Below, in pieces: positions 19,175 through 25,913 of a stretch of 64,000 bases of DNA. The translations under genes and the position numbers were made by a program. The stretch's first letter is position 1. Each line of letters begins with the position of its first letter. The notes below the pieces were generated by a model. The model did not search any database. It was not told the origin of the DNA and saw only the letters and a list, made by a program, of their open reading frames with translations. This DNA is from Staphylococcus sp. IVB6240 (GTDB lineage Bacteria; Bacillota; Bacilli; Staphylococcales; Staphylococcaceae): assembly GCF_025558425.1 (NCBI RefSeq), contig NZ_CP094718.1, positions 1,426,001 to 1,490,000 on the forward strand, written 5' to 3'.

Positions 19175-19263
19175 CGGAAGATGGGGGATTCGAACCCCCG
19201 AGACGCTTGTGGCGCCTACACACTTTCCAGGCGTGCTCCTTCGGCCAACTCGGACAATCTTCC
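19175..19263 (-). tRNA. tRNA-Ser (GGA)
   Basis: 89 nt with a long variable arm, acceptor GGAAGAT/ATCTTCC, anticodon GGA in CTGGAAA, and GTTCGAATC in the T loop. No CCA is encoded. Last gene of the eight-tRNA operon. Confidence 0.97.
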
Positions 19264-19308
19264 ATAATAACACAAAAAATCAGAAGCGATATTTCACTTC
19301 TGATTATA

Positions 19309-19380
19309 TGACCCCTACGGGACTCGAACCCGTGTTACCGCCGTGAAAGGGCGGTGTCTTAACCGCTTGACCAAGGGGCC
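19309..19380 (-). tRNA. tRNA-Glu (TTC)
   Basis: 72 nt, acceptor GGCCCCT pairing with AGGGGTC, anticodon TTC in CTTTCAC, T loop GTTCGAGTC. No CCA is encoded. Confidence 0.97.
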
Positions 19381-19381
19381 A

Positions 19382-19456
19382 TGGCTCCACAGGTAGGACT
19401 CGAACCTACGACCGATCGGTTAACAGCCGATAGCTCTACCACTGAGCTACTGTGGA
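19382..19456 (-). tRNA. tRNA-Asn (GTT)
   Basis: 75 nt including an encoded CCA. Acceptor TCCACAG pairs with CTGTGGA; anticodon GTT in CTGTTAA. Confidence 0.97.
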
Positions 19457-19466
19457 ATAATTAAAA

Positions 19467-19540
19467 TGGAGCGGGTGATGGGAATCGAACCCACAACATC
19501 AGCTTGGAAGGCTGAGGTTTTGCCATTAAACTACACCCGC
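19467..19540 (-). tRNA. tRNA-Gly (TCC)
   Basis: 74 nt including an encoded CCA. Acceptor GCGGGTG; anticodon TCC in CTTCCAA; T loop GTTCGATTC. Confidence 0.97.
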
Positions 19541-19554
19541 ATTACAACGATATG

Positions 19555-19628
19555 GGCGGTTGATGGGAATCGAACCCACGAATGTCGGAACCACAATCCG
19601 ATGCGTTAACCACTTCGCCACAACCGCC
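19555..19628 (-). tRNA. tRNA-His (GTG)
   Basis: 74 nt. The extra 5' G (position -1) opposite C73, a hallmark of His tRNAs, is encoded. Anticodon GTG in TTGTGGT. No complete CCA is encoded. Confidence 0.97.
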
Positions 19629-19639
19629 GTAATAAGAAG

Positions 19640-19712
19640 TGGTTCAGGACGGAATCGAACCGCCGACACAAGGATTTTCAGTCCTTTGCTCTACCGACTG
19701 AGCTACTGAACC
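19640..19712 (-). tRNA. tRNA-Phe (GAA)
   Basis: 73 nt, acceptor GGTTCAG pairing with CTGAACC, anticodon GAA in CTGAAAA. No CCA is encoded. Confidence 0.97.
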
Positions 19713-19719
19713 ATAATAA

Positions 19720-19796
19720 TGGCGGTCCCGACGGGAATCGAACCCGCGATCTCCTGCGTGACAGGCAGGCGTGTTAAACCGCTCCACTACGGGACC
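19720..19796 (-). tRNA. tRNA-Asp (GTC)
   Basis: 77 nt including an encoded CCA. Acceptor GGTCCCG pairs with CGGGACC; anticodon GTC in CTGTCAC. Confidence 0.97.
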
Positions 19797-19807
19797 ACTC
19801 AAAAATA

Positions 19808-19881
<74 letters not shown>

Positions 19882-19911
19882 ACAATATTATTTAAAAGCA
19901 ATTACTTAATT

Positions 19912-19940
19912 ATATTATCACTTATCTAACAAGATGTCAA
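19912..19940 (-). promoter_or_regulatory. tRNA operon promoter
   Basis: Minus-strand TTGACA (19940-19935) and TAATAT (19917-19912) are separated by 17 bp. The start of transcription would be about 24 nt before tRNA-fMet. It is a strong, simple promoter, as expected for stable RNA. Confidence 0.8.
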
Positions 19941-20450
19941 TACAATTTTTATATTTTTTATCTCGCTAAGTACAAACAAAGATTGTTTAACAACTTAACG
20001 ACTTAGTCAGTATATATTTAATTTATTAAAAGGTCAACTCCCCTATCACAAGAATTTTGTGGAATAAAACACCTTTACAGTATTTATTGAATTATTGTAT
20101 CTAATTAGACTATAAAATATCAGTATTTATTTACTAAAGTCTAAAATGTTACTTTGTTTTATCATATATATTCAACTACTTGAAAATTACATTAACGTAA
20201 TTTAACTCAACTAACGATAATACTTTCAAAATTCTAATAGACATAACATCTACTCGGGGCTGAGACATAGTGCTAGGTTCCTTCCTTTTGAATATAGATA
20301 TAAGTTTAGTGGCAGTAGGTGTCTGAAGTGAAAATACGTTTTTAAAAACTTTTTTCACTCCTAGTCACCCTTGCCGGGGTGGGACGACGAAATCTTTTAT
20401 AGTAATAAAGATTTCTGTCCCACTCCCTTTTAACTAATATAGAATTCTAG
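19941..20450. repeat. intergenic region with staphylococcal 'GGGGTGGGAC' element
   Basis: The long spacer between the tRNA operon and the polyol genes has no supportable gene. It contains GGGCTGAGACATA (about 20258-20270) and, at 20376-20427, GGGGTGGGAC facing GTCCCACTCCC with GAAATC/GATTTC inside. This large hairpin is of the kind repeated in many staphylococcal intergenic regions. It may act as a terminator or be a remnant of a small non-autonomous element. Confidence 0.6.
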
Positions 20451-20519: not shown

Positions 20520-21281
20520 TTAAACTTTTATAAATTGTCCAACCTGAATTTTATATTTTTCTTCGTTATATGCATTGTTTACATCATCCGTGATTAATAC
20601 ATCTATTGATGATATTGGACAAATATTGTGTAATGAAACCTTATCAAATTTTGAACTATCAGCTAAAAGGAAAATTTCTTTAGATTGTTCAACCATTATC
20701 CTTTTAGCTGGTGAAAGCTCTTCACTATAATGTGTAATTCCTTTTTCAAAATGTAGTGCAGGTGTTGCAAGAAACAATTTTGTTGGATTTAGGTCAGCCA
20801 ATGTGCGATCTGTAATATGCCCATTTAAAATATAATTATCTTTATATAAAATTCCACCTGTAACAATAATTTTGTTTTGCGAAGAATTTAAGATTGAGGC
20901 AATATGAATATCATTCGTTATAATCGTTAGATTTTGTTTATTGATTAAATGCTTAGCGAATTGTAACGTGGTTGAACCTGAATCGATGATAATAGTATCA
21001 CCTTCATTTACGAATGTTGCTGCTTTTTTACCAATATTTCTTTTTTCAGTGAAATGCGTTGATTCTCTTTCATGAAAATTAAGTTCATCTTTTACTTCAT
21101 CATGCTGAAGAACGACTCCACCATGTGTTCGCTTGATTTGATTATATTTTTCTAGATTTTTAAGGTCTCTTCTAATAGTAGCATCATGCACATCAAATAT
21201 AGTTGATAATTCGTGAACTGTTGCTGTTTTATTTTGCCTTAAATAATCGACTATATTCTGTTCTCTTTCAGCTGGCAACAC
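20520..21281 (-). CDS. DeoR-family transcriptional repressor of the polyol genes
   Basis: A 253-residue regulator: an N-terminal winged helix-turn-helix (LSTIFDVHDATIRRDLKNLEKYNQIKRTHGG, about residues 20-55, the DeoR signature) and a C-terminal sugar-phosphate-sensing domain with DSGSTTLQFAKHL and ADSSKFDKVSL. DeoR proteins usually repress adjacent sugar or polyol genes and let go when a phosphorylated intermediate appears. GTG at 21281 is chosen because AGGGG lies 8 nt upstream; another GTG three codons earlier is less well placed. It has its own promoter and lies at the end of the minus-strand dehydrogenase-permease-regulator run. Confidence 0.82.
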   Translation of the reverse strand: MLPAEREQNIVDYLRQNKTATVHELSTIFDVHDATIRRDLKNLEKYNQIKRTHGGVVLQHDEVKDELNFHERESTHFTEKRNIGKKAATFVNEGDTIIIDSGSTTLQFAKHLINKQNLTIITNDIHIASILNSSQNKIIVTGGILYKDNYILNGHITDRTLADLNPTKLFLATPALHFEKGITHYSEELSPAKRIMVEQSKEIFLLADSSKFDKVSLHNICPISSIDVLITDDVNNAYNEEKYKIQVGQFIKV

Positions 21282-21312
21282 TGTTAGCACCCCTAATTTG
21301 TGAATTTATTAC

Positions 21313-21341
21313 ATTATATCAAATATATAACTTTTTGTTAG
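21313..21341 (-). promoter_or_regulatory. deoR promoter
   Basis: An extended -10 TGATATAAT (21321-21313) with CTAACA 17 bp upstream (21341-21336), in the gap after the permease gene. It suggests the regulator is also made independently of the catabolic genes. Confidence 0.55.
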
Positions 21342-21347
21342 AGGTTT

Positions 21348-22580
21348 TTAGTCCATAGACGTTTTGGCATTGTTTGGTAATTTGATGAAATATGTCAAAA
21401 TTGAACTAAAGAAATAAAGTAATGCTAATATCCAAATGACACCTCTAGCTTCAACAACATCGATAAATAAATTTACAATCATAGGGCCAACAAACACAGG
21501 TAAACCAGCACCTAAATTCAATACCGCAAGTGCTGCCCCTTTATCTTTTTTAACAAGCGAAGGTACGAGAGCTGAAAGTGGGACATAAGCTGCTAAAAAT
21601 GCTCCCCATAAAACACCTACTACAGTAAGGATAACCAAATTCCCATCTGTCCATAAAGGAATATAACCGATTAATAGTGTTGTTATACCACATCCTACAC
21701 CGCCAAATAGCATAATTGTATTTCTCCATCCAAACTTATCTCCAACGATACCAAAAATAAGATTAAATGCGATATTTGATATAAAAATTCCAGACCAGAC
21801 ACCTAACCATTTTGAAGTCGGAATACCAAATGAAGCAAGGTAAATAGGTAAGAATACTGGAAATGCAAATTGAGCTGTTGTATTAATGATTCGTACGATA
21901 CCACCTAATAATACTTTGGGCTCGTCTTTCATAATTGTAATACCTTTTAAAAGTTCAGCTACTTTTTCTTTGGAGTTACCTTTATTCGCTGGTAGCGTAT
22001 CTCTATTCACAAATAATGCAAACAGACCACCTAATAGCACCCAAAATAGAGAACTCCAAAGCGTATTGATGTGACCTAGTACTTCAATAGCAACGATAGA
22101 ATATAAAGCACCCAAAACGTTTAAACCACCTGTAAATACAAACCAAAACCAACCAACAGCAGCTCCTAAATGTTTCTTCTCAGCTCTATATGAAATCCAA
22201 ACTAAAAATGAATAAGCAAACAATGGATAACCAAACCCTCTTAATGCATATGCAGGTATCATTAATGCGAGGTTCTCTGATGGAATCGCAAATCCAACAA
22301 AGAATATTGTTCCTAAAACGTATAACAATAATCCAAGTGACATTGTTTTCTTGCCACCAAGTGATTCAGCAAGTACCCCACTGAACCAACTTGATATTGC
22401 TATTGTCACACCATAACTTGCAAATAGCATACTTGTTTCTTTAATAGAAAAACCATGACTATGTAACCATGGACTAAGCCATCCAATCTCTAACCCGTCC
22501 CCCATCATAAAAATAAGAATTCCTATATAACCCCATATAATTTTCTTAGGCATACCTATTACAGTTAGATTTGTATTCAT
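21348..22580 (-). CDS. MFS polyol permease (RbtT/DalT/CsbX type)
   Basis: A 410-residue transporter with 12 predicted membrane helices. The start (GYIGILIFMMGDGLEIGWLSPWL) and RGFGYPLFAYSFLVWISYR resemble the polyol permease branch of the major facilitator superfamily, whose members bring ribitol or arabitol into the cell with protons. GGGGG lies before the ATG. It lies 24 nt downstream of the dehydrogenase stop with no terminator, so the two are co-transcribed. The exact polyol cannot be read from the sequence. Confidence 0.72.
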   Translation of the reverse strand: MNTNLTVIGMPKKIIWGYIGILIFMMGDGLEIGWLSPWLHSHGFSIKETSMLFASYGVTIAISSWFSGVLAESLGGKKTMSLGLLLYVLGTIFFVGFAIPSENLALMIPAYALRGFGYPLFAYSFLVWISYRAEKKHLGAAVGWFWFVFTGGLNVLGALYSIVAIEVLGHINTLWSSLFWVLLGGLFALFVNRDTLPANKGNSKEKVAELLKGITIMKDEPKVLLGGIVRIINTTAQFAFPVFLPIYLASFGIPTSKWLGVWSGIFISNIAFNLIFGIVGDKFGWRNTIMLFGGVGCGITTLLIGYIPLWTDGNLVILTVVGVLWGAFLAAYVPLSALVPSLVKKDKGAALAVLNLGAGLPVFVGPMIVNLFIDVVEARGVIWILALLYFFSSILTYFIKLPNNAKTSMD

Positions 22581-22604
22581 AATAATTAACCCCCTTTTTT
22601 CCTT

Positions 22605-23675
22605 TTACCAGTTGTATTTTAAGTAAGTTTTTTTCCAACCTTTATGAGCGGCTGCATCATCCATTGCTCGATTTAAATCTTTGATTTCTCTAATATCATA
22701 ATATGTCTCAGGAATTAATTTACGCAATGCTTTTTGATAGTTTGGATTATCAAAATGAGAAATTAATTGTTCAAATTCTTTCTTTGTACTTCGTGAACTT
22801 CCTGATAGAGTAAGGCCTTTTTCAAGAACATCTCTTGTATTAATTCCTACCAAATCCTCTGTTACACCCATTAACACAATTTGTCCTTGTCGATCTATTA
22901 AATCAATTGCTTGGTTAATCGCTGATTCTGAGAATTTTCCACCTGTACACTCAAATACCGTATGAACACCTGATTCATTGGTAAAATCATAATCAAATAC
23001 TAAATGTGTTGTGGCAAAATCATTAAATTCTTTTAATTTTTCTTCAACAGCTCCAAAAACAATTAAATTTTCTTTTTCAATACCGTGTATAAAATGTAGT
23101 GCTGTTGCTGATAAATAGCCTACTGGGCCATCACCAAATACTGCAACTTTTGGTGAATTTTTAGTTGTAATGTCCTGAAGCTGATTAATTGGAAATAAAG
23201 ATACTGAACATAATTCCGCTAAAAGTGCTACATCTTCATCTAAATCACTAGGAATTTTTACAACATTATCACCATGAATAACAAGTTTGCTTTGGCAAAT
23301 ACCATCAAATCCACTTCCCATAAACAAAGCATTTTCATCATAGTTATCTTGTAAATCTGTACTTGCAAATTCTCCTTTTTGTAAGCGTGAAGGAATGTTA
23401 GGAACGATAACAACTTTATCTCCTATTTTAATATCCTCATGATTTGACGCCTCCACTATTCCAATACCTTCATGAAATAATGCCATAGGTAGTTTTTTCT
23501 TCAAAGCTTCTGGTCGACGATTTCCTGTATAATAACGTAAATCAGCATGACACACACTAGCTTTTGTGGGTTTGACAATAATATCTTTATCTGAAAAATC
23601 ATGCTCTATCATCATTTCTTCAAATTGTCCCGGTTTTATCAATCGATAAGCCTTAGATTCTATTTTTTTGCTCAT
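22605..23675 (-). CDS. TarJ-like zinc polyol(-phosphate) dehydrogenase
   Basis: A 356-residue medium-chain dehydrogenase. The catalytic zinc ligands are visible (Cys in SVCHADLRYYTG, His-Glu in LFHEGIG), and the coenzyme site is VFGDGPVGYLSA. The second, structural zinc cysteines are absent. Many stretches (RYYTGNR, KLPMALFHEGIG, VVIVPNIP, VLEKGLTLSGSSRS) resemble TarJ, which reduces ribulose 5-phosphate to ribitol 5-phosphate for wall teichoic acid. Here there is no TarI cytidylyltransferase partner; the gene sits with a permease, kinase and DeoR regulator, so I infer a catabolic role (polyol phosphate to ketose phosphate). Its ATG lies within one of four operator repeats. Confidence 0.75.
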   Translation of the reverse strand: MSKKIESKAYRLIKPGQFEEMMIEHDFSDKDIIVKPTKASVCHADLRYYTGNRRPEALKKKLPMALFHEGIGIVEASNHEDIKIGDKVVIVPNIPSRLQKGEFASTDLQDNYDENALFMGSGFDGICQSKLVIHGDNVVKIPSDLDEDVALLAELCSVSLFPINQLQDITTKNSPKVAVFGDGPVGYLSATALHFIHGIEKENLIVFGAVEEKLKEFNDFATTHLVFDYDFTNESGVHTVFECTGGKFSESAINQAIDLIDRQGQIVLMGVTEDLVGINTRDVLEKGLTLSGSSRSTKKEFEQLISHFDNPNYQKALRKLIPETYYDIREIKDLNRAMDDAAAHKGWKKTYLKYNW

Positions 23676-23772
23676 TTATGTTCACTCTCCTATTTTTTGT
23701 TCATTTAAGCTTGTAAACACATAATATACGCTCATTTATGCGTTTGTCAAACTTATTTTGCTCATTTGCGTT
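23669..23772. promoter_or_regulatory. array of four direct repeats, candidate DeoR operators
   Basis: The core YTCATTT, in the context TTGCTCATTTATG, occurs at 23671-23677, 23700-23706, 23731-23737 and 23761-23767, all in the same orientation. Spacings of 29, 31 and 30 bp put each copy on the same face of the helix. One covers the dehydrogenase start codon, one follows its -10, one lies between its -35 and -10, and one abuts the kinase -35. They are the obvious sites for the local DeoR repressor. Confidence 0.7.
23721..23750 (-). promoter_or_regulatory. promoter of dehydrogenase-permease genes
   Basis: Minus-strand TTGACA (23750-23745) and TATTAT (23726-23721) with an 18-bp spacer that contains one of the YTCATTT repeats. 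Confidence 0.75.
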
Positions 23773-23799
23773 GATTTTATGTTTGTTTTTACTTATTAT
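23771..23799 (+). promoter_or_regulatory. promoter of the kinase gene
   Basis: TTGATT (23771-23776) and TATTAT (23794-23799) with a 17-bp spacer, 30 bp before the kinase ATG. The fourth operator repeat ends 3 bp before the -35. Confidence 0.7.
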
Positions 23800-23829
23800 A
23801 AAGGTATCCCATTCAAATGGAGGTATAAT

Positions 23830-25464
23830 ATGACGTATAGTATAGGAATTGATTATGGAACAGGTTCTGGAAGAGTTTTTTTAGTTCAAACAAAAACTGG
23901 TAAGATAGTTTCTCAATATATAAAGCCTTATACACACGGTACAATTGATCAGGAACTCTTTGGCGAGAAATTGCCACATGGATTTTCATTACAAAATGCG
24001 AATGATTACTTAGAAGTTTTAGAAGAAGGTATCCCTCATGTCTTAAAAGAAGCGGAAATTAATTCAAATGACGTACTTGGAATCGGTATAGATTTTACTG
24101 CCTCAACTGTTATCTTTGTTGATAAAGATATGAACCCTATTCACAATAAAATAGGATTTGAGGAAAATCCTCACGCTTATGTAAAACTATGGAAACATCA
24201 TGGAGCAGAAGAAGAAGCAAACTTACTTTTTAACACCGCTATTAAAAAGAAAAAAAGATGGCTAGGTAATTATGGTTATAACGTAAGTAGTGAATGGATG
24301 ATTCCAAAAATTATGGAAGTTATGAATAAAGCACCAGAAGTAATGGATGAAACATTTGCTATTATGGAAGCTGGTGATTGGATTGTTAACAAATTAACTA
24401 ACCAAAATATACGATCAAATTGTGGCATTGGCTTCAAAGCATTCTGGGAAGCGGAAAATGGCTTTCATTATGATTTATTTGACGAAATAGATAAGAATTT
24501 ATCAAAAGTAATACGAGATAAAGTAGATACAACTATCATTAATATTGGAGATTCAGCTGGACATTTGTCTAGTGAAATAGCTAGCAAGCTTGGATTGTCA
24601 ACAAACACGCAAGTTAGTCCATTCATTATAGATGCACATTCAAGTTTATTAGGGATTGGTGCAGAAAAAGAAAGACAAATGACTATGGTTATGGGTACAA
24701 GTACTTGTCATTTAATGTTAAATAAAAAACAAAAAAGAATTCCTGGTATTTCTGGTTCTGTTAAAGGTGCAATAATTCCTGACCTATATGCATATGAAGC
24801 TGGTCAGTCTGCAGTAGGAGATCTATTCGAATATGCTGTCAAGCAAGCACCTAAATCATATATAGATGAAGCGGAATCACGTAATATATCCATTCATCAT
24901 TTATTTGAAGAAAAAGCTGCAATGGCAAAGCCAGGTGAAAGTGGTTTGATTGCTTTAGATTGGCACAATGGTAACCGAAGTGTATTAAGCGATAGTAGTT
25001 TACGTGGCAGCATATTTGGTCTAACATTACATACCAAACCTGAGGAAATTTATCGTGCTTATTTAGAAGCTACAGCATTCGGGGCAAAAATGATTATGCA
25101 ACAATATGAAGATTGGGGTTTACATGTTGAAGATGTGTTCGCTTGTAGTGGTATTCCAAAACGCAATAAATTATTGATGGACATATATGCTAATGTTTTA
25201 AATAAAAAAATAGTAGTCATCGATAGTGAGTATACGCCAGCCATAGGTTCTGCTGTATTAGGAGCTGTTGTAGGTGGTGCTTATGAAACGATTCAAGAAG
25301 CAACACAAAATATGAAAGAACCCGTTTTATACGAAATTGAGCCAGATACTGAAAAAGTCGAACGCTATGAAGTACTCTTTAAAGCATATAAAGAATTACA
25401 TGATATCCACGGGTATAAAAAAGCACGTATCATGAGATCTATTTCTAAATTATATACAGAATAA
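23830..25464 (+). CDS. FGGY-family kinase, ribulokinase (AraB)-like
   Basis: A 544-residue carbohydrate kinase. The ATP-binding start YSIGIDYGTGSGRVFLV, GIGIDFTAST, the adenosine motif MVMGTSTCHLML, and VFACSGIPKRNKLLMDIYANVL match the ribulokinase branch of the FGGY family. AraB-type kinases are known to accept L- and D-ribulose and, more weakly, ribitol and arabitol. GGAGG lies 8 nt before the ATG at 23830; the open frame upstream crosses the promoter. No araA or araD lies nearby, so L-arabinose use is unlikely to be its purpose. Paired with the dehydrogenase, it would deliver pentulose 5-phosphate to the pentose phosphate pathway. Confidence 0.8.
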   Translation: MTYSIGIDYGTGSGRVFLVQTKTGKIVSQYIKPYTHGTIDQELFGEKLPHGFSLQNANDYLEVLEEGIPHVLKEAEINSNDVLGIGIDFTASTVIFVDKDMNPIHNKIGFEENPHAYVKLWKHHGAEEEANLLFNTAIKKKKRWLGNYGYNVSSEWMIPKIMEVMNKAPEVMDETFAIMEAGDWIVNKLTNQNIRSNCGIGFKAFWEAENGFHYDLFDEIDKNLSKVIRDKVDTTIINIGDSAGHLSSEIASKLGLSTNTQVSPFIIDAHSSLLGIGAEKERQMTMVMGTSTCHLMLNKKQKRIPGISGSVKGAIIPDLYAYEAGQSAVGDLFEYAVKQAPKSYIDEAESRNISIHHLFEEKAAMAKPGESGLIALDWHNGNRSVLSDSSLRGSIFGLTLHTKPEEIYRAYLEATAFGAKMIMQQYEDWGLHVEDVFACSGIPKRNKLLMDIYANVLNKKIVVIDSEYTPAIGSAVLGAVVGGAYETIQEATQNMKEPVLYEIEPDTEKVERYEVLFKAYKELHDIHGYKKARIMRSISKLYTE

Positions 25465-25765: not shown

Positions 25766-25879
25766 AACAAATAAACGCCCAAGGACAATGACGGAAGATA
25801 AGTCATACCTTGAGCGCTTTGGAATCGAAACATTATTAGGAAAATATCATATTCATACCGACAGTTTTATTACTGTCTA
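25766..25879 (-). ncRNA. candidate metal-regulated small RNA
   Basis: From the promoter at 25885-25913 the minus-strand transcript would begin near 25878. It holds a 5' hairpin GACAG-loop-CTGTC, an unpaired AU-rich middle, and a terminator hairpin: CGCTCAAGG (25816-25808) with CCTTGGGCG (25784-25776), an inner stem ATGAC/GTCAT with loop TTATCTTCC, and the tail TTTATTTGTT. The pyrimidine-rich loop could pair with Shine-Dalgarno sequences. No open frame of note lies within it. The features are seen in the sequence; its existence as an RNA is inferred. Confidence 0.5.
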
Positions 25880-25884
25880 TAAAC

Positions 25885-25913
25885 ATTATATTTAGGTTAA
25901 CCTAAAAATTCAA
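25885..25913 (-). promoter_or_regulatory. promoter with DtxR/MntR-type operator in its spacer
   Basis: TTGAAT (25913-25908) and a consensus TATAAT (25890-25885) are 17 bp apart, and 16 of those 17 bp are the perfect palindrome TTTAGGTTAACCTAAA (25906-25891). The core TTAGGTTAACCTAA matches the operator type bound by DtxR-family metal sensors (MntR/SirR in staphylococci). A bound dimer would block RNA polymerase outright. Confidence 0.65.

Follow-up and report, generated by a model that had tools for sequence, protein, structure and literature searches.

A conserved small RNA gene, encoded on the minus strand of the window (i.e., the entire 64,000-nucleotide stretch of DNA that was analyzed), was shown by computation to combine an MntR-type operator with two blocks of complementarity to the sodA leader, a complementarity that is specific at genome scale. 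It is probable that this gene specifies a stand-alone, trans-acting sRNA which, repressed by manganese-loaded MntR, would block sodA translation as part of a manganese-sparing response. The original prediction had proposed a metal-sparing small RNA controlled by a DtxR/MntR-like box; the conserved box, the RNA structure and the lack of fit to a leader or coding function, described below, speak for such an RNA, stand-alone and controlled by MntR, while the terminator loop through which the RNA had been suggested to act is variable and appears to be secondary.

The predicted promoter (25913-25885, minus strand) comprises a -35 element, TTGAAT (25908..25913), and a -10 element, TATAAT (25885..25890), separated by a 17-nt spacer consisting of a T followed by the perfect palindrome TTTAGGTTAACCTAAA (25891..25906), in full agreement with the architecture originally described. 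Across the 14 aligned orthologues the TTAGG-N4-CCTAA arms of the palindrome and the TATAAT hexamer are invariant, the -35 element reads TTGA or TTGC, the core of the RNA is (near-)invariant and the flanks are variable, while the operator occupies one constant promoter position in 15 genomes. Taken alone, the promoter is unremarkable, since the 3-kb region contains 12 promoter-like sites as compared to 16.3 in shuffled sequence. When up to three mismatches are allowed the palindrome has a single match in the window, which is exact; as 45 of 100 shuffles of the window also contain at least one match at this tolerance, the weight of the palindrome resides in its exactness and its place. Across the 2.195 Mb genome, exact, one-mismatch and two-mismatch copies occur once each (none for the reversed-pattern control), while at three mismatches 22 sites were found as opposed to 37 for the control, so that the three-mismatch list is mostly due to chance.

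Among these three-mismatch sites, however, is GTTAGGGTTACCTAAA, located between the divergently oriented mntR and mntABC of the window's genome (designated G000), where the mntR product exhibits PF01325, PF02742 and FeoA domains and where the neighboring ABC transporter with a ZnuA-type binding protein is the expected mntABC. The mntR-mntA locus of genome G067 carries the box TTTAGGCTAACCTAAT. Because related boxes are present at mntR-mntABC in both genomes, the box of the sRNA promoter is of the type found at the manganese transporter, as the earlier comparison of the palindrome to MntR operators had implied, and the RNA gene shares with the MntR regulon a core-promoter operator (TTTAGGTTAACCTAAA) that resembles those of mntABC (GTTAGGGTTACCTAAA, TTTAGGCTAACCTAAT). 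The controlling metal is probably manganese, acting via MntR. Older work on S. epidermidis and S. aureus includes reports of iron effects on sitABC/mntABC (PMC1764749), which would suit control by iron or another metal, via MntR or another DtxR-type repressor, and a role in iron rather than manganese balance. Such control is considered unlikely in view of the same kind of box at the manganese transporter locus of the window's own genome, and of a predicted target, SodA, that is described as highly manganese-preferring (PMC13321213).

The 5' hairpin, AU-rich middle and terminator hairpin with the loop TTATCTTCC are all situated where they had been placed by the first reading of the sequence, and together they outline a candidate small RNA of ~113 nt (25766..25878, minus strand; about 115 nt had been anticipated), the putative ends of which are those dictated by promoter and terminator. 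This RNA (25878-25766) folds with a free energy of -32.7 kcal/mol as compared to -18.2 +/- 2.7 kcal/mol for shuffled sequence (z -5.4), and it is matched by model R1, which was built from the 14 aligned orthologues. The 5' hairpin, GACAGU-AAUAAA-ACUGUC (25860..25877), is maintained by compensating changes, in that a stem of at least five pairs is present in all 15 genomes while its sequences are quite different, with arm variants including GACAGU/ACUGUC, GAUAGU/ACUAUC, GAUGG/CCAUC and GUAGAA/UUCUAC, among others. The arms were assigned by hand, and the three rows marked as broken owe this mark to one pair too many in the assignment; when each sequence was tested singly, a fraction of between 0 and 0.06 of 300 shuffles folded equally well, the highest value being that of G045.

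The intrinsic terminator hairpin (25773..25819) is formed by 12 pairs (25819-25808 with 25784-25773) and displays the anti-Shine-Dalgarno-like loop UUAUCUUCC (25801-25793), for which a duplex with sodA is predicted. Two-sided changes were observed at five of the 12 pairs among the 14 aligned sequences, and the covariation of 0.272, compared to 0.125 for shuffled alignments, was equaled in none of 500 shuffles. As the two outermost pairs fail in eight and seven of the 14 sequences, respectively, the stem that is common to the orthologues consists of 10 pairs. The U-tract that follows is weak in the window's genome (TTTATTTGTT) and strong in some relatives (TCTTTTTTT); a terminator scan of the 3-kb region called none at the 3' end of the RNA, where the hairpin is nevertheless present and is followed by this weak U-tract.

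Between the two hairpins lie two invariant blocks, the first of which, UAUUUUCCUAAU (25835..25846), has the sodA Shine-Dalgarno sequence UUAGGAGGAU as its predicted partner, while for the second, GAUUCC (25821..25826), the predicted partner is GGAAUC, located where the sodA mRNA presumably begins. In the accessibility set, which includes the RNA of G037 as cut by its contig end, the mean unpaired probability of UCCUAAU was 0.53-0.88 in 13 of 15 genomes, the segment being mostly paired in G011 (0.29) and G030 (0.42); values for GAUUCC ranged from 0.29 to 0.94, this block being only partly free in some folds. The gene presents its own promoter and terminator without a conserved reading frame, as trans-acting sRNAs do, and a conserved, unpaired C-rich seed facing a Shine-Dalgarno sequence, as is characteristic of the C-rich type of Gram-positive sRNA. 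An Rfam search returned no family over the RNA stretch, neither at the gathering level nor at E<=1.

An AUG within the core is invariant, and the RNA might on this basis be suspected to encode a small protein. The peptides that would start at this codon are 5 to 51 residues long and dissimilar, the subgroups are set out of frame with one another by a single-nucleotide shift (UUUC-GAUUCC versus UUUAAGAUUCC) that leaves the RNA blocks in place, and the bases ahead of the AUG are CU-rich and lack a Shine-Dalgarno sequence. A coding function is therefore highly improbable, and this reading was rejected for want of a conserved peptide.

A search of other staphylococcal genomes combined with covariance analysis had been put forward as a means to evaluate the RNA, and its outcome, alongside the covariation reported above, was that, of 84 Staphylococcus genomes, 21 gave a match in the DNA search and 15 of these contain an orthologue of the entire block (G061 contains a second short match besides). 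The alignment comprises 14 of these orthologues, that of G037 having been omitted since its contig ends inside the RNA. Model R1 matches the same 15 of 84 genomes, 14 of which served to train it, and, at family level, 15 of 108 genomes representing one of five genera; under the stricter filters that apply to searches of more than 40 genomes, it detected no homologue of the candidate RNA in the other 69 Staphylococcus genomes. S. rostri is among the carriers, a scan of named genomes having yielded only S. rostri and one Clostridia contig.

The gene upstream of the RNA, encoding a serine hydrolase (PF06821; 25929..26501, minus strand), serves as a syntenic landmark, with the sRNA promoter starting 15 bp beyond its stop codon. 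A hydrolase match is present in 83 of 84 genomes, G052 being the one without, and in 15 of 15 cases the RNA gene adjoins, by coordinates, one of the closer homologues (53-100% identity), while G071, G054, G015, G001, G036 and G043 possess the hydrolase (47-72%), with no RNA found within the surrounding 3.5 kb. On the other side, the 3' end of a convergent, plus-strand FGGY kinase gene faces the RNA in the window's genome, and, as had been noted at the outset, no protein gene starts within reach of the promoter. Since MntR boxes usually head genes, for example mntABC and mntH, the block might instead be the 5' leader of a gene further downstream, such as one for a (decayed) transporter. Such a leader is, in our view, extremely unlikely: the transcript is ended by the terminator, and no same-strand protein gene of consistent identity is found downstream, where G041 and G074 merely show lone frames of 115 and 129 aa at a distance of 0.7-1 kb. 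In three of the four relatives scanned with Rfam the RNA is followed by tRNA genes, in the fourth by a group II intron, and in the window's genome by the convergent kinase. The leader reading, which had been named beforehand as the finding that would overturn the stand-alone RNA, was accordingly rejected on account of the terminator and the absence of a consistent same-strand gene.

With regard to the wider neighborhood, the kinase belongs to a polyol-type cassette (DeoR regulator, MFS transporter, alcohol dehydrogenase and FGGY kinase; window positions 20520-25464) that lies between the sRNA and a tRNA cluster at 19175-19958. In three relatives (loci L005, L016 and L053) a cluster of tRNAs and S774 starts about 170-225 nt after the sRNA, and the cassette therefore appears to have been inserted or rearranged in the window's genome. 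S774, a Staphylococcus sRNA in Rfam (19862-19958), overlaps the first tRNA of the cluster in the window and adjoins tRNAs at the three relatives' loci, and may be a tRNA-operon leader. The T-run of the sRNA terminator is abutted in G069 by a group II intron (matched by Rfam from L020:1721, with a reverse-transcriptase frame from 2134), the 5' end of which, identified by eye as GTGCGCCCGG at position 1638 of L020, is located directly at this T-run. As group IIC introns favor insertion after terminators, this arrangement counts in favor of the predicted terminator-ended RNA.

The invariant blocks UCCUAAU and GAUUCC are complementary to the sodA leader, where they find the Shine-Dalgarno sequence UUAGGAG and the hexamer GGAAUY at the presumed mRNA 5' end, respectively. 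A wobble-tolerant complement of the core (TTAGGRGRRTR, followed by ATG within 1-8 nt), written from the RNA alone, with sodA already in mind as a candidate, was searched in the 15 RNA-bearing genomes and matches the sodA start in all 15 (TTAGGAGGATGATTAATTATG and close variants), while no other matched string recurs with close variants in more than eight of the 15, by our own count. In the window's genome alone, a seed search with one mismatch missed sodA. The sodA leaders furthermore contain GGAATC or GGAATT 4-5 nt ahead of TTAGGAGG; as this hexamer is positioned 6 nt past a -10-like hexamer, it is placed at the likely start of the sodA mRNA. GGAATY is the complement of GAUUCC, with one G-U pair needed for the GGAATT version. 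The two-block pattern GGAATY-N2-9-TTAGGAG has 21 matches in the 15 whole genomes, 15 of which are sodA and the remaining six of which differ from one another in sequence, as compared to three matches for the reversed control; in the window's genome it matches sodA only. All 15 RNA-bearing genomes were found to contain a single superoxide dismutase gene.

The original prediction had pointed to the terminator loop for target recognition, and this holds to a limited extent. The loop harbors CCUCC, an additional anti-Shine-Dalgarno motif, in 10 of 15 genomes, and the best duplex between loop and sodA (UCAUCCUCC with GGAGGAUGA) reaches -16.8 kcal/mol; in G000 the loop retains pairing with sodA by way of wobbles. 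As the main seed, the loop was rejected, being variable and lacking CCUCC in five of 15 genomes (G000, G016, G058, G041 and G011). The stronger and invariant middle (UCCUAAU...GAUUCC) looks to be the principal targeting element, with sodA as its predicted target and the loop in a secondary role.

It is quite possible, though not the reading to which we incline, that the C-rich core of a genuine MntR-controlled sRNA acts as a general anti-Shine-Dalgarno element on several mRNAs, with sodA as one of many targets or not the main one. UCUCC and CCUCC suit any strong Shine-Dalgarno sequence, and IsrR and other S. aureus sRNAs are described as targeting such sequences via C-rich regions (PMC9410917). 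The seed also matches other starts, such as that of an SDR-like protein (L104, named by eye) in G000, and related seed sites occur in seven of the 15 genomes in a Na/Pi-cotransporter-like frame (440-448 aa, named by eye). When 140 gene starts sampled from G000, with enrichment for seed matches, were ranked by duplex energy, sodA came first if the consensus core was used and second, behind one other gene, if the core of the window was used. On the other hand, no start apart from that of sodA was seen to match in every one of the 15 genomes, no other two-block match recurred, and a plain anti-Shine-Dalgarno model gives no reason for the invariance of GAUUCC. As regards the Na/Pi-like frame, its site (L111, L118, L127 and L134) precedes an in-frame ATG (TTAGGAGAATATGCAATG and variants; seven of the 15 RNA-bearing genomes by string), and possibly constitutes a second target or an internal start.

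The sodA leaders of RNA-bearing and RNA-free genomes were then compared. Each of the 84 genomes has one sodA start of this type, and GGAATY is present within 20 nt before the Shine-Dalgarno sequence in 17 of the 84 leaders, these being the leaders of all 15 RNA-bearing genomes and of two of the 69 without the RNA, namely G071 and G052. Duplex energy, in contrast, failed as a discriminator, as the RNAduplex values for sodA leaders of RNA-bearing genomes (-17.3 to -22.1) overlap those of the others (-13.5 to -21.9), owing to the nearly genus-wide presence of UUAGGAGGAU; pairing with the Shine-Dalgarno sequence does not by itself tell the two groups apart. A sodA tree built for 41 of the 84 genomes, with a midpoint root for drawing only, places the RNA-bearing genomes in one part, together with G001 and G015 (neither RNA nor block) and with G071 and G052. 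Because of this shared location, the co-occurrence of RNA and GGAAUY represents few events, and the block could reflect shared ancestry. The RNA-bearing genomes do not form a clean clade, since G001 groups beside G011 and G030 (support 84/89), for which loss of both features, a second gain or a wrong fork are alternative explanations. The retention of GGAAUY in G071 and G052, the latter next to G022 in the tree, fits loss of the RNA or, for G052, which also lacks the hydrolase, an assembly gap.

Based on the identity and place of the box, manganese-loaded MntR would, under manganese-sufficient conditions, occupy the palindrome between the -35 and -10 elements and block transcription, while manganese starvation would free the promoter and allow synthesis of the terminator-ended RNA of ~113 nt. 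The core could then pair with the short sodA leader, GAUUCC with GGAAUY and UUYUCCUAA with the Shine-Dalgarno sequence UUAGGAGGAU, the CCUCC loop motif of 10 of the 15 genomes perhaps providing a second contact with the same Shine-Dalgarno sequence. Such pairing would be expected to block ribosome loading and thus to stop synthesis of the manganese-dependent superoxide dismutase, sparing manganese for other enzymes.

The predicted circuit is reminiscent of that of RsaC of S. aureus, an MntR-repressed RNA derived from the mntABC 3' UTR, which is reported to block SodA synthesis and to favor SodM, and which, like sodM, is said to occur in S. aureus and its close relatives only (PMC9294342, PMC9266662). 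The RsaC response is presented as manganese-sparing in a 2025 study (PMC12421985), and SodA is stated to be common to all staphylococci (PMC13321213). Both RNAs have manganese starvation and MntR as trigger, SodA as target, a translation block as outcome and a manganese-sparing logic, all of these being predicted in the case of the candidate; RsaC is processed from the mntABC 3' UTR, whereas the candidate RNA, of ~113 nt, would be transcribed from an MntR-box promoter of its own, elsewhere in the genome. RsaC is several hundred nt to more than 1 kb in length. In G000 the next, convergent gene is situated only about 54 nt past mntC, which leaves no room for an RNA from the mntABC 3' UTR. The presumed RsaC region of G067, a genome deemed S. 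aureus-like only by gene positions and a roughly 900-nt gap after mntC, shares nothing beyond 7-9 nt words with the candidate RNA, and R1 yields 9-11 bits (E 2.6 or worse) on this stretch. In the best reading, the candidate would be a functional counterpart of RsaC belonging to a separate RNA family.

We lean, with some reservation, towards the view that MntR-controlled silencing of sodA has evolved at least twice with unrelated RNAs, i.e., RsaC in the S. aureus group and the candidate RNA in a second group, to which S. rostri belongs. In this second group, GGAAUY at the 5' end of the sodA mRNA would serve as a docking block dedicated to the RNA, and silencing would affect the product of the only superoxide dismutase gene found. 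It follows from this last point that cells of the second group would give up superoxide dismutase altogether when manganese is short, and the resulting loss of superoxide protection is a point against the proposed circuit. If true, this would mean that selection favors the shut-off of manganese superoxide dismutase during manganese starvation for its own sake, even where no substitute enzyme exists. Furthermore, the convergent evolution of metal-sparing RNAs would become directly testable, and the compact, promoter-defined RNA (~113 nt) is easier to dissect than RsaC.

Parallels also exist with other metal-responsive RNAs. IsrR, a Fur-controlled, iron-sparing RNA of staphylococci, is likewise described as being under the control of a metal repressor, as using C-rich single-stranded motifs against Shine-Dalgarno sequences and as metal-sparing, but it differs in its regulator, Fur, and in its targets, which are nitrate and other iron enzymes (PMC9410917). 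For RyhB, PrrF, FsrA and NikS / s-SodF, too, a metal repressor is reported to silence an RNA that lowers metal-enzyme synthesis, with RyhB and s-SodF also targeting superoxide dismutases (PMC9294342, PMC12421985). These RNAs concern other metals and lineages, and no homology is claimed. IsrR is encoded at a different locus from the candidate RNA. An S. aureus sRNA named ManS may be MntR-dependent; should it exist, the R1 result given above, with no homologue of the candidate RNA in the other 69 Staphylococcus genomes, applies to it. In the literature searched, which for the most part did not extend to subscription papers and preprints, no MntR-dependent RNA outside S. aureus was recognized.

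The six other genomes with matches in the DNA search possess MntR-type boxes elsewhere, and boxes were discerned by eye before an mntH-like gene (L019) and mntA-like genes (L021 and L022). At L018 (G053) and L024 (G083), MntR-type boxes are located in a symmetrical, AT-rich setting beside a frame reading MKGNNN..LERNNALFNKYEA, which by eye is not mntABC, while at L023 (G007) an exact TTTAGGTTAACCTAAA is found amid AT-rich sequence with no assigned gene. Within the window's genome, the closest other copy of the palindrome, with one mismatch (L002 1501-1516, i.e., G000:C1:2143703-2143718), lies upstream of a frame for a trypsin-like serine protease (PF00089) with a signal-like N-terminus, starting 54 bp ahead of the frame's first start codon, and this protease gene possibly represents a third MntR-controlled unit.
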